Source: Candidatus Nitrosotenuis cloacae (GTDB lineage: Archaea > Thermoproteota > Nitrososphaeria > Nitrososphaerales > Nitrosopumilaceae). Taken from it: a stretch of DNA of 64,000 nucleotides. Below, one piece after another: positions 28,757 through 34,160 of this stretch (its first letter is position 1; each line of letters begins with the position of its first letter). The stretch is from positions 1,080,582 to 1,144,581 of the forward strand of contig NZ_CP011097.1 of assembly GCF_000955905.1 (NCBI RefSeq). The letters run 5' to 3'. The translations under genes were made by a program, and so were the position numbers. The notes under the pieces are model-generated. The model did not search any database. It was not told the origin of the DNA and worked only from the letters and a program-made list of their open reading frames with translations.

Positions 28757-28990
28757 GTGTTTGTGGATGCTATAATTGTAAAGTTAGAAGTGGATCCGAA
28801 TGGAGAGTCAACAATATCAAATTTGTTCTATCTATGTCATATTGGATTGGCATTGTCAGAAATTAATAGTAATTTTAGAATTATAGTTATTCCTGAAAAA
28901 ACAATACTTGGTAAAACTATTTTGGAAAATTCTCAAATATCTTATCTTCTACAATTTCGTTTGCTTTCCGGTAGATTGACCAATCAGTGA
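28757..28990 (+). CDS. Possible gene fragment at the edge of the AT-rich island
   Basis: A 77-codon frame from GTG 28757 reads plausibly up to about residue 55 (FVDAIIVKLEVDPNGESTIS, then FRIIVIPEKTILGKTI) and then runs into the C-terminal end of the KAP gene on the other strand, overlapping it by 74 bp. It may be the start of a gene cut off when the KAP segment arrived, or chance in AT-rich DNA. No family recognised. Confidence 0.25.
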   Translation: MFVDAIIVKLEVDPNGESTISNLFYLCHIGLALSEINSNFRIIVIPEKTILGKTILENSQISYLLQFRLLSGRLTNQ

Positions 28991-30335
28991 TTTCCATCAG
29001 ATCAGGAATATAACGTCTTAACAGTCTCCAATCATCTAGAGATATTTCAGACATTGATGAAATTAAATCAAAAGATAATTCCTTCTTCTTTAATTCATTG
29101 GGTATTAATTTTCTTAATAACATACGAATGTGAGACAGTTTGGGTTGAGGATTATTGTATAACTCATTAAACAGTGGTACAAGTTCATTATCAGATTTAT
29201 AACGTTCACGTATTCGCCAAGATTTGTCAGTATTTCGCAAAATCATGAGTCTAGAATAACCCTTTAGTATTTTTTTGAAAAAATCTCTACAATCATTATT
29301 AATTTCAATTATTTTAACCAGTTTTGGATATCGTTTGTGTAAAACTTGCACTACGAACAAATTAACAAGACTGAGCTTTTTGTTATTTGTATCAGAAAAT
29401 GATTCAAATGCAATAATTAAATTATTAATAAAACGTTTTAGTTGACGAGGGTTGTTTTGGACGGTTTTTATTAGAATATTCGAATTATCAGATATTAATT
29501 TGTAATATTTTCTATCGATGCTTTTTGCAATGTTGTTTTCAATCAAGTCAATTAATTTTGTATCATCCCATTTGGGAAGATTTAACGGGATTTGAATAAT
29601 CTTTTGTAAATAGTCACTACCATCTACTCCAACATCATTATACGAATAGGAGATTAATTTTGCAAGTGTTGTATGGCTTAAACCGATTACATAGACAAAT
29701 CCCTCCATATCTAAAAATACTTTAATAGATTCTAAAACTTCAAGAGCTTTCTTTGGTGAGCATCTATCTAAATCATCAATGAAGACAATAATTTTACAGT
29801 TTTTGTTGTTTTTTCTGATTTTCCTCATCTGAGTTTCAATAATAGATAACCCATCATAATAGATAGTTTCTTTTTCAATGCTCATCAAAAGATCGAATTT
29901 TTTTGAGATATTTTCTTTGATTTCTTTTATAACTTCTTGTGAGAGGAATTCTTGTAGGAGTTGTTTCCCAGATTCTTTACCAAAAATCTTTAATGCGTTA
30001 AAAATGGTTTCCCGAATAGGTTCAAACTTCAGATTATTAGTCATTGCATAAGCAATGTTTTTTAATAAAGCAACTGTTGCAAACTGTTCTTCTCGCTCAT
30101 ATTTCCAAGCATTGAACCAGATAGTCAATGTATTATGGTCATCATCATAATCAGAGATATTTTTCTGAATTTGTTTCATTAAAGTGGTTTTTCCGGTTCC
30201 CCACTCACCATAAATTCCAGTTACAAAATGTGGCTCTGAATTCTGTATTAATGTGGATATAGTCTCTGCTAATAATTCAAAGTCTTTAGATGGTGAGGAT
30301 TCAGGTAGATCAATTAGAACTTTTATTCCTTTCAT
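28917..30335 (-). CDS. KAP family P-loop NTPase
   Basis: A 472-residue STAND-like NTPase of the KAP family: Walker A GEWGTGKT (43-50), the KAP signature TIWFNAWKYE (71-80), Walker B IIVFIDDLDR (182-191), and NNPRQLKRFINNLI downstream. Many bacterial KAP proteins have membrane helices in the loop after Walker A; none are evident here. KAP NTPases occur in animal signalling and in prokaryotic defence islands and plasmids. The gene is clearly more AT-rich than its surroundings (Ile, Asn, Lys rich) and lies beside the 3' end of tRNA-Arg, which suggests horizontal arrival. Confidence 0.88.
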   Translation of the reverse strand: MKGIKVLIDLPESSPSKDFELLAETISTLIQNSEPHFVTGIYGEWGTGKTTLMKQIQKNISDYDDDHNTLTIWFNAWKYEREEQFATVALLKNIAYAMTNNLKFEPIRETIFNALKIFGKESGKQLLQEFLSQEVIKEIKENISKKFDLLMSIEKETIYYDGLSIIETQMRKIRKNNKNCKIIVFIDDLDRCSPKKALEVLESIKVFLDMEGFVYVIGLSHTTLAKLISYSYNDVGVDGSDYLQKIIQIPLNLPKWDDTKLIDLIENNIAKSIDRKYYKLISDNSNILIKTVQNNPRQLKRFINNLIIAFESFSDTNNKKLSLVNLFVVQVLHKRYPKLVKIIEINNDCRDFFKKILKGYSRLMILRNTDKSWRIRERYKSDNELVPLFNELYNNPQPKLSHIRMLLRKLIPNELKKKELSFDLISSMSEISLDDWRLLRRYIPDLMEITDWSIYRKANEIVEDKIFENFPK

Positions 30336-31966: not shown

Positions 31967-32812
31967 TTAGAAGCCCTTTGGCAGCGTGCCTTTTGGTTTT
32001 GCTGGTGCTGGTGGTGCCGGAGGTGGTGTCGGTTTGAATCCTGCTGGTAGTGAACCCCTAGTTGATCCAGTTGGTGCTGGAGCTGGTGGAGGTGGAGCCT
32101 TTACTTGTTCTTGTTGCTGCTTCATTCTAGCAAGATATTCTTTTTCATATGCCTCTAGCTGATCCTTTCGTGATGCATTTCCATTATCGCCAGACGATGC
32201 CTGTGGTGCCGGTTTTGTGCCAGCTGGCAAGGTGCCTTTTGGTTTTGGTGGCGGTGGTGGAGGTGGAGGTGCAGTTGTTGTTTGTGCAGAACCAGTTGCA
32301 GTCGATGCAATACCATATCCTGCGAAGTATTTTGTTCTAGGATGGTATGCAAGCTTTTCTCGTGTTGCAAAGTACTTGTTTGAAGGTTGAGTGTAACCTG
32401 TTACCTTTGCCTTTTGGAGACTCCAATCTGATGTTGGAACGCTTGCTTGCTTGACATGCTTGCTTGCAAAGTATCGGTTTGGTGCTGGTGAATATCCAGT
32501 TACCTTTGCTCGATAGCTGTGGAAATCAGTCATTGGTGCGCTCTTCCACTGATCATACACTGGAACAATTTCGGCTGCTGGTTCCTGTGGCTTTGGTGGT
32601 GGAGCTGTAGTTTGCGGTGCTGGCTTTGGAGCTGGCGGCGGTGTCTGTGGAGCCGGTTTTGGTGCCGGCGGAGGTGTCTGAACTTGTGGTGGTGGAGGTG
32701 CTGTAGTTTGTGGTCTTGATTCAAATTGACTAGATAATTTTGCGAGCTTTTCTTCGAGTGCTGCAATCTTTGCTTCTAAATCCTTCTTTGATGATTTAGT
32801 TGTTCCAGCCAT
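31967..32812 (-). CDS. Proline-rich repeat protein A
   Basis: A 281-residue protein with an N-terminal coiled coil (SSKKDLEAKIAALEEKLAKL), a Pro/Ala/Gln-rich linker of PPAPKPAPQT units, and a unique core with two KVTGY(S/T)-x3-N(R/K)YFA repeats plus a shorter TKYFAGYG. A polyproline run of eight follows, then a helical charged stretch (DQLEAYEKEYLARMKQQQEQ). The motif (K/R)G(T/S)LP(A/K)G occurs three times, the last as the exact C-terminus GTLPKGF. I start at ATG 32812: the TATA-like box at 32838-32850 excludes GTG 32830. No known family; the core is identical to that of the neighbour at 33006. Confidence 0.75.
   Translation of the reverse strand: MAGTTKSSKKDLEAKIAALEEKLAKLSSQFESRPQTTAPPPPQVQTPPPAPKPAPQTPPPAPKPAPQTTAPPPKPQEPAAEIVPVYDQWKSAPMTDFHSYRAKVTGYSPAPNRYFASKHVKQASVPTSDWSLQKAKVTGYTQPSNKYFATREKLAYHPRTKYFAGYGIASTATGSAQTTTAPPPPPPPPKPKGTLPAGTKPAPQASSGDNGNASRKDQLEAYEKEYLARMKQQQEQVKAPPPPAPAPTGSTRGSLPAGFKPTPPPAPPAPAKPKGTLPKGF
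32262..32652. repeat. 391-bp perfect direct repeat, copy 1
   Basis: Identical base for base to 33058-33448 (offset 796 bp, no gap) by line-by-line reading. It encodes the shared core of the two proline-rich proteins; sequence on both sides diverges at once. This implies very recent duplication or gene conversion. Confidence 0.95.
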
Positions 32813-32837
32813 GTGTGGTTTTTCTGACACCTCGATA

Positions 32838-32850
32838 GTTTATTTACATT
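32838..32850 (-). promoter_or_regulatory. TATA box of proline-rich gene A, shared with gene B
   Basis: Read on the minus strand, AATGTAAATAAAC lies 26 nt before ATG 32812. The same 13 bases precede gene B at 33710-33722, 24 nt before ATG 33686. The two genes therefore share their core promoter as well as part of the coding sequence. Confidence 0.6.
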
Positions 32851-33005
32851 TTGTTCGGCTCACCTCCAAAACATTTGGGTGAATTTTTTATCAAAGATGA
32901 GATTTTTACAACTAATCCATGCCAAACCCGCAATTCCAGATCTAGTAATCGATCACACCATACGGTAGAATTTATTCAAAAATATGTAAGAAAATATGGA
33001 ATTTT

Positions 33006-33686
33006 TTAGAAGCCCTTTGGCAGAGAACCGCGTGACGGATTTAGTTTCTTTGCTGGTGGTGGAGGTGCAGTTGTTGTTTGTGCAGAACCAGTTGCAGTCG
33101 ATGCAATACCATATCCTGCGAAGTATTTTGTTCTAGGATGGTATGCAAGCTTTTCTCGTGTTGCAAAGTACTTGTTTGAAGGTTGAGTGTAACCTGTTAC
33201 CTTTGCCTTTTGGAGACTCCAATCTGATGTTGGAACGCTTGCTTGCTTGACATGCTTGCTTGCAAAGTATCGGTTTGGTGCTGGTGAATATCCAGTTACC
33301 TTTGCTCGATAGCTGTGGAAATCAGTCATTGGTGCGCTCTTCCACTGATCATACACTGGAACAATTTCGGCTGCTGGTTCCTGTGGCTTTGGTGGTGGAG
33401 CTGTAGTTTGCGGTGCTGGCTTTGGAGCTGGCGGCGGTGTCTGTGGAGGTGTTTGAGTTTGTGGTTTGTATCCTGCTGGTAAGGTACCTTTGGCTGCAGC
33501 TGGTGCTGGAGCTGGTGCAGGTTTTGGTGCTGGTGGTGGTGTTTGAACTTGTGGTGCTGGCTTTGGAGCCGGTGGTGTTGTTGTTTGCGGTGCTGACTCG
33601 ATCTGCGTAGCTAGTTTTGCAAGTTTTTCTTCTAATTCTGCAATCTTTGCTTCCAAGTCTTTTTTAGTGGATTTAGCACTAGACAT
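33006..33686 (-). CDS. Proline-rich repeat protein B
   Basis: A 226-residue paralogue of protein A in the same order: coiled coil (STKKDLEAKIAELEEKLAKL), a Pro/Ala linker with an inserted KGTLPAGYKP, the core (identical to A over 391 bp of DNA) with the KVTGY repeats, a four-proline run, and the C-terminus RGSLPKGF. The charged helix that A carries near its end is missing here. Start ATG 33686 is chosen because the TATA-like box at 33710-33722 lies 24 nt upstream; ATG 33692 would also be possible. No signal peptide, so cytoplasmic. Function unknown. Confidence 0.75.
   Translation of the reverse strand: MSSAKSTKKDLEAKIAELEEKLAKLATQIESAPQTTTPPAPKPAPQVQTPPPAPKPAPAPAPAAAKGTLPAGYKPQTQTPPQTPPPAPKPAPQTTAPPPKPQEPAAEIVPVYDQWKSAPMTDFHSYRAKVTGYSPAPNRYFASKHVKQASVPTSDWSLQKAKVTGYTQPSNKYFATREKLAYHPRTKYFAGYGIASTATGSAQTTTAPPPPAKKLNPSRGSLPKGF
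33058..33448. repeat. 391-bp perfect direct repeat, copy 2
   Basis: Second copy of the identical segment, inside proline-rich gene B. Both copies are in the same orientation, 796 bp apart, so recombination between them would delete one gene and fuse the rest in frame. Confidence 0.95.
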
Positions 33687-33709
33687 GTACAATAACTGCC
33701 CGGAACGGG

Positions 33710-33722
33710 GTTTATTTACATT
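33710..33722 (-). promoter_or_regulatory. TATA box of proline-rich gene B
   Basis: AATGTAAATAAAC on the minus strand, the same core as in front of gene A, 24 nt before ATG 33686. Confidence 0.6.
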
Positions 33723-33782
33723 TGGGTAAATTTCAAACCATACTGGATCAAATTTAATAGAACCAACAAACTATACAACCCA

Positions 33783-34160
33783 ATGGATGATTTTGAGAAA
33801 GAGTTTCCAGGATTTGACTGGAAAAACACGCCGGCATACAAGCATCCAGGAGGCAAAGACTGTCCATGTCCAAAGCACGAGTATGTCAGAGAGCAGATCA
33901 ACTATACCAGAACAGTAAACCAGACCAGCAAAGAACCAACCAAGGTTACGCTCAAGTTTTGTCCAGAGCACTACAAGGTCTACATGGAAGAGGTAATTCC
34001 TGCAATGCCACTAAAGTACAGACTGCTCACCAAGATAGCGCTAAAGCTTGGGGCAATACAGCTAGAAAAGCTGACCCACATGCAATCAGACCTTTGCTTT
34101 TACTGCAAGTTTGGCTCCGGTGGACACGGGAAGAAAAGCGAGCTTCCACCAATTCAGTAA
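33783..34160 (+). CDS. Uncharacterised Cys/His-containing protein
   Basis: A 125-residue protein with CPCPKHEY (about 27-34), FCPEHY (about 59-64) and CFYCKFG near the end, which together could hold one or two metal ions. The middle is helical and basic (LKYRLLTKIALKLGAIQLEKL). A TATA-like AATTTAATAG (about 33750-33759) lies at the leaderless distance from ATG 33783. No family recognised; metal binding is inferred from Cys/His spacing. Confidence 0.6.
   Translation: MDDFEKEFPGFDWKNTPAYKHPGGKDCPCPKHEYVREQINYTRTVNQTSKEPTKVTLKFCPEHYKVYMEEVIPAMPLKYRLLTKIALKLGAIQLEKLTHMQSDLCFYCKFGSGGHGKKSELPPIQ

Follow-up and report, generated by a model that had tools for sequence, protein, structure and literature searches.

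The window analysed here, a stretch of 64,000 nucleotides, comes from a genome of 1.62 Mb in one contig and contains two adjacent genes that share an exact repeat of 391 bp. This raises the question of how the identity arose and what kind of proteins the genes encode. The genes, called L and S below, are minus-strand ORFs that both begin with ATG. Both ORFs, the repeat, the KVTGYxxxxN[RK]YFA units and the two C-terminal motifs lie where the original prediction had placed them, and KVTGYSPAPNRYFA and KVTGYTQPSNKYFA were both found in the twin sequences as described. The extent of the sharing far exceeds chance expectation. The features of the twin genes are as follows.

31967..32812, minus strand: gene L, 281 aa, with a coiled coil, a linker rich in Pro, the 75-aa core, a second helix and three motifs of the GTLP(K/A)G type
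33006..33686, minus strand: gene S, 226 aa, with a coiled coil, a linker rich in Pro, the 75-aa core and a GSLPKGF end
32262..32652, minus strand: exact 391-bp repeat, L copy, spanning the whole 225-nt core
33058..33448, minus strand: exact 391-bp repeat, S copy, spanning the whole 225-nt core
32312..32536, minus strand: 75-aa core of L, with two imperfect KVTGYxxxxN[RK]YFA units
33108..33332, minus strand: 75-aa core of S, DNA identical to the core of L
32720..32788, minus strand: predicted N-terminal coiled-coil helix of L, residues 9-31 (AlphaFold2, pLDDT about 72-84)
33597..33665, minus strand: predicted N-terminal coiled-coil helix of S (by homology to the L head)
32102..32179, minus strand: predicted second helix of L, DQLEAYEKEYLARM.., L-specific (pLDDT about 70-90)
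32219..32239, minus strand: internal motif KGTLPAG of L (motif reading)
32039..32059, minus strand: internal motif RGSLPAG of L (motif reading)
31970..31993, minus strand: motif KGTLPKGF at the exact C-terminus of L (KGTLPKG part 31973-31993)
33471..33491, minus strand: internal motif KGTLPAG of S (motif reading)
33009..33032, minus strand: motif RGSLPKGF at the exact C-terminus of S (RGSLPKG part 33012-33032)

The source genome has three copies of the tag motif in L and two in S. Among all twin proteins the number ranges from 0 to 7, and the linkers grow and shrink freely between genomes. Almost every S and L protein ends in [KR]G[TS]LPKGF; for L, [KR]GTLPKGF closes 35 of 41 proteins and GSMPKGWKPS closes a few. 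Orthologues of both L and S occupy unchanged positions at the other loci read. The YExxYLxR sequence of the second helix of L was seen again in repeat proteins of two loci (L240 and L242). An LPXTG sortase substrate was considered and rejected from the S and L sequences, since the N-terminus is Lys-rich, a hydrophobic segment is absent and LPKGF stands at the very end.

The twins are not peculiar to the source genome. A single-sequence search detected the core in 176 of 250 Nitrosopumilaceae genomes (109 of the 131 high-quality ones) and in all 22 genera of the family. When a profile of 14 rows was run over 400 genomes of the class, the core was restricted to Nitrosopumilaceae except for two weak matches in another family. 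These were not accepted as relatives; on rescoring, the better one contains internal stop codons. Gene order was constant in the 39 genomes with both twins (38 fetched pairs plus the window): aquaporin, bcp peroxiredoxin, L, S and a conserved 125-aa protein, usually followed by UbiD and then an MqnC-like gene if the fetched sequence extends so far. The 125-aa protein (window positions 33783-34160, plus strand) is approximately 70-94% identical family-wide, always adjoins the twins, and has no Pfam family above cut-off. A KAP-family P-loop NTPase that is also encoded in the window (28917-30335, minus strand) was not seen next to the twins in any other genome examined.

Six high-quality genomes without a core match were checked. 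In four of them (G028, G134, G097 and G230) the 125-aa gene lies approximately 100-400 bases from the contig end on the twin side, and in a further genome, G237, which gave a weak match only, it is equally close to a contig end on that side. Such ends are what a perfect repeat that breaks an assembly would produce. The exactness of the repeat could also point to an assembly duplication of a single gene, one of the two outcomes that the original prediction had named as its refutation. Comparative data already dispose of this idea, and we consider its probability negligible: flanks, promoters and tails differ between the copies, the arrangement recurs in many complete single-contig genomes of the family, and fragmented genomes without the pair break at the twin locus.

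Some genomes depart from the common layout. Two g3 genomes (L078 and L079) have a single L-type gene at the twin position. The complete genome G092 has one fused gene with an S head and an L tail, from which the core is deleted (locus L154); this fusion either arose by deletion in nature or is an error of assembly, and it is a true exception as assembled. In G118 (locus L162), an L gene without core adjoins an S gene with core. The core-less G092 and the single core copy of G118 indicate that the core is not indispensable everywhere. The g16 genomes contain the second half of the core only, yet GTLPAG is kept. In one of them (G180, locus L158), the GPTHGTLPAG units and the half-core are duplicated within the gene.

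The original prediction had proposed a comparison of synonymous divergence among relatives. In 29 of 39 genomes S and L show no difference over the 225 nt of the core, whereas the core from the closest other genome has a median of 11 changes in this length, many of them silent. The identity noticed in the source genome is thus confirmed as a family-wide feature and is not special to that genome. Per-genome comparison gave exact S/L tracts of 253-610 bp (median 503), and in the heads S and L of one genome had a median of 11 differences over 54 nt. Almost everywhere in the core tree, a copy stands next to its partner from the same genome. Using 35 genomes, S/L label changes numbered 33 on the core tree versus 4 on the flank tree, for which 45 nt of upstream sequence and 29 codons were used. 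S-monophyly was rejected for the core (p-AU 4e-22) and was not rejected for the flanks (p-AU 0.31). Both marks of concerted evolution by gene conversion were found, i.e., clustering by genome in one part and by paralogue in another, and a shared position and gene order. The results show that S and L are ancient tandem paralogues whose shared centre has repeatedly been overwritten by gene conversion. They also show that the heads, the promoters and the L-only tail retain paralogue identity despite conversion of the centre. An independent recent duplication in each genome is ruled out by the shared synteny and the paralogue-specific heads and promoters.

The original prediction had left a choice between gene conversion and selection for equal cores. 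Trees and tracts strongly support conversion. Selection for equality fares less well: both genes are present in genus g17, 38-44 of the 225 core nt differ between them and the cores cluster by paralogue, so core equality is not strictly required, and G092 has no core at all. Concerted evolution of paralogues by gene conversion is known for rRNA genes and for the EF-Tu genes tufA and tufB, where, as in S and L, paralogues are closer within a genome than orthologues are between genomes. The twins differ from these cases in that conversion is limited to the protein centre, with paralogue-specific heads, promoters and tail kept. As a natural example of gene conversion between adjacent archaeal protein genes throughout a family, the pair is unusually clear-cut.

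The core itself is conserved. Its length is constant (75 residues) in the 80 copies read, 19 positions are invariant among 14 diverse rows, and comparisons between genomes show purifying selection (189 pairs, median dN/dS 0.19). S and L matched no Pfam or NCBIfam profile above curated cut-off, and a sequence-profile search of the core against the PDB found no relative; a PDB match to a fimbrial fusion covered 15 residues only and was judged spurious. These searches uphold the claim that the core does not correspond to a described domain. In an AlphaFold2 model of L, based on an alignment of 12 related sequences so that low confidence may reflect a thin alignment rather than true disorder, the mean pLDDT was 50.6 and confidence was confined to helices 9-31 and 212-237, which agrees with the predicted coiled coils. 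Core and linkers were without predicted structure. The structure modelling that had been suggested earlier thus supplied a predicted helix-disorder-helix outline and no confident fold for the core.

The tag extends beyond the twins. Three unrelated families of proteins, encoded outside the twin interval, likewise preserve the motif [RKH]G[TSA][LM]P[KA][GDE]. A motif census was done as a DNA-pattern search, on the source genome and six others first and then on a wider set. The pattern with an aromatic residue gave about 328 matches versus 9 for the control in 127 Nitrosopumilaceae genomes, and about 21 versus 6 in 73 genomes from elsewhere in the class; relative to control matches, the motif is enriched only in Nitrosopumilaceae. 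Most of the DNA-pattern matches come from the twins. The proposal to look for KVTGY and GTLPxG in related genomes therefore led further than foreseen, finding the core family-wide and the motif also in the three unrelated families. One of these is a membrane protein.

G000:C1:1070657-1071958 (in L127/L168), minus strand, outside the window: single-span membrane protein

It has a signal sequence, an ectodomain of approximately 300 residues, one span and a cytoplasmic tail ending TRGSLPAGYEQPKEEPKPSSNRGSMPKDWKPSS. The protein was detected in 28 of 29 genomes and has no Pfam, NCBIfam or PDB relative. Its C-terminal motif is kept in five genera, in the window's genus as a GSMPKDW motif at the tail end; others have a Cys-rich tail instead (CGCAASAEMGSECDCEMQGSCLCDASCGC.., in most Nitrosopumilus-like genomes).

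The second family is a long coiled-coil protein with two GRLYHILE-type units and a single motif, PQGTLPKGW. Essentially every clear orthologue retains this linker motif, in the forms RGSMPKGW, RGTLPKGW, QGTMPKGW, EGAMPKDW or HGAMPKGW, the weakest being VTLPKGW. The third family is a repeat protein of other genera that starts with MDKWADYL and has up to four RGSLPK[ED] repeats; SPRGSLPK is retained in most of its longer orthologues, and the G088 protein has a DUF5679 end. G006 encodes a 723-aa protein starting with MTKWADYL (L129:2316-4484, minus strand), in which 15 RG[TS][LM]PKG copies follow each other at a spacing of approximately 75-100 nt. The G006 repeat protein also carries the YERDYLARL word of the L tail.

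As expected for a short linear motif, the tag persists in proteins that are unrelated to one another, while the linkers around it vary. Its single copy in the variable linker of the coiled-coil protein is the strongest sign of a functional motif of this type, and we weighted it most because the twins supply most of the pattern matches. The neighborhoods of the other motif proteins, listed and viewed by eye, gave no clue to function, and a literature search for the motif strings and guessed N. maritimus locus tags found no mention of them.

We propose that S and L act as multivalent scaffolds that combine coiled coils with a disordered chain and dock to a common putative receptor through their GTLPKG tags, a reading for which we see about an even chance. 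The scaffold part is suggested by the helix-disorder-helix model, the exact C-terminal motif in nearly all copies and the presence of up to seven motifs per protein. The docking part is suggested by retention of the motif in a coiled-coil linker, at a membrane-protein C-terminus and in repeat proteins, and by the enrichment of the pattern in Nitrosopumilaceae. S and L would be cytoplasmic, with the N-terminal helix mediating formation of dimers or higher oligomers, the disordered Pro-rich linkers acting as spacers, and the 75-aa core with its two KVTGYxxxxN[RK]YFA units serving as a conserved binding segment. The [RK]G[TS]LP[KA]G tags, one of them C-terminal, would be docking peptides for one common putative receptor, to which the tagged membrane tail, the long coiled-coil protein and the repeat protein would bind as well. 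The outcome would be an envelope-to-cytoplasm assembly specific to Nitrosopumilaceae and linked via the membrane protein. The full proposal, a docking network of this family on [RK]G[TS][LM]PK[GD] that joins the membrane protein, the coiled-coil proteins and the converting scaffold pair into an envelope-linked cytoplasmic assembly, is tentative, and our confidence in it is somewhat less than even. The multivalent scaffold or cytoplasmic assembly system of the original prediction may be seen as indirectly supported by the motif in three further families, the lack of a known domain, and the predicted disorder with two helices. Against docking is the Cys-rich membrane tail that several genera have instead of the motif. 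Low-complexity linkers could also swap motifs by recombination, which weakens the recurrence argument for the repeat-rich members and not for the single motif of the coiled-coil protein.

The main rival to the docking model is that the core of S or L itself binds the GTLPKG tag, in which case the twins would self-assemble and the membrane and coiled-coil proteins would be clients. Tag and core indeed co-occur in nearly all S and L proteins, and proteins with the tag and without the core exist as possible clients. Nevertheless, we regard it as unlikely: G092 (one genome) has lost the core and retains tags both in the fused twin and in the coiled-coil protein, the g16 genomes with half a core still have GTLPAG, and no fold is predicted for the core. 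The tag might instead mark proteins for processing, modification or turnover, e.g., as a C-terminal degron or protease tag. Its exact C-terminal position in S, L and several membrane tails would suit such a role, whereas the abundance of internal copies, with 15 in a single G006 protein, and the lone mid-protein copy in the coiled-coil family make it distinctly improbable.

A more sober explanation is that the twins are mostly neutral low-complexity repeats that are homogenised by recombination and have little function beyond that of a bulky cytoplasmic filler. The free variation in linker length is consistent with this, and gene conversion requires no selection for equality. Neutrality is difficult to reconcile, however, with a core of constant length in 80 copies at a dN/dS of 0.19, with fixed synteny and persistence of the pair despite direct repeats of 400-600 bp that invite deletion, and with retention of the motif in non-repetitive proteins, and we consider it improbable.

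Multivalent scaffolds, hubs based on short linear motifs and concerted evolution are known kinds; the twin family, its motif and the sharing of the motif across four protein families are undescribed as far as literature and database searches show. The carboxysome scaffold CsoS2 resembles the twins in that short motifs recur along a disordered chain, the C-terminal part is distinct and VTG-type units are present. The twins differ by their coiled coils and by a tag common to several unrelated proteins, and, as neither S nor L matched a Pfam profile, they are probably not members of the CsoS2 family. Similar to the ligands of SH3, WW, GYF and EVH1 domains, the tag is a short Pro-containing peptide in disordered linkers that may have one common reader domain; we know of no consensus of these types that [RKH]G[TSA][LM]P[KA][GDE] fits. 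Few archaea are as abundant in the sea as Nitrosopumilaceae and, to our knowledge, very little is known of how the cells of ammonia-oxidising archaea are organised. The conserved tag provides a handle, as peptide bait, on a possible new assembly in organisms that play a central part in nitrogen cycling.

The two genes also share a 16-nt element, CMAAATGTAAATAAAC, which precedes both S and L and has no other exact copies in the source genome. It was located by exact match search.

32838..32853, minus strand: promoter element CAAAATGTAAATAAAC upstream of L
33710..33725, minus strand: promoter element CCAAATGTAAATAAAC upstream of S

The element spans approximately 40 to 22 nt before the ATG, with its end at approximately 22-26 nt, which we take to be the placement of the archaeal TATA region of a leaderless gene. 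The shared promoter word noted originally is thus present upstream of both genes; its position fits a TATA region, though it is unusually conserved and private to the pair. The conservation across genera appears to exceed that of an ordinary TATA box. A regulon sharing the element was rejected, exact copies being confined to the twin pair in five genomes. In four of the five genomes tested, CMAAATGTAAATAAAC without mismatch occurs solely upstream of S and L; in G088 the exact element occurs solely upstream of L, and the S copy has diverged.
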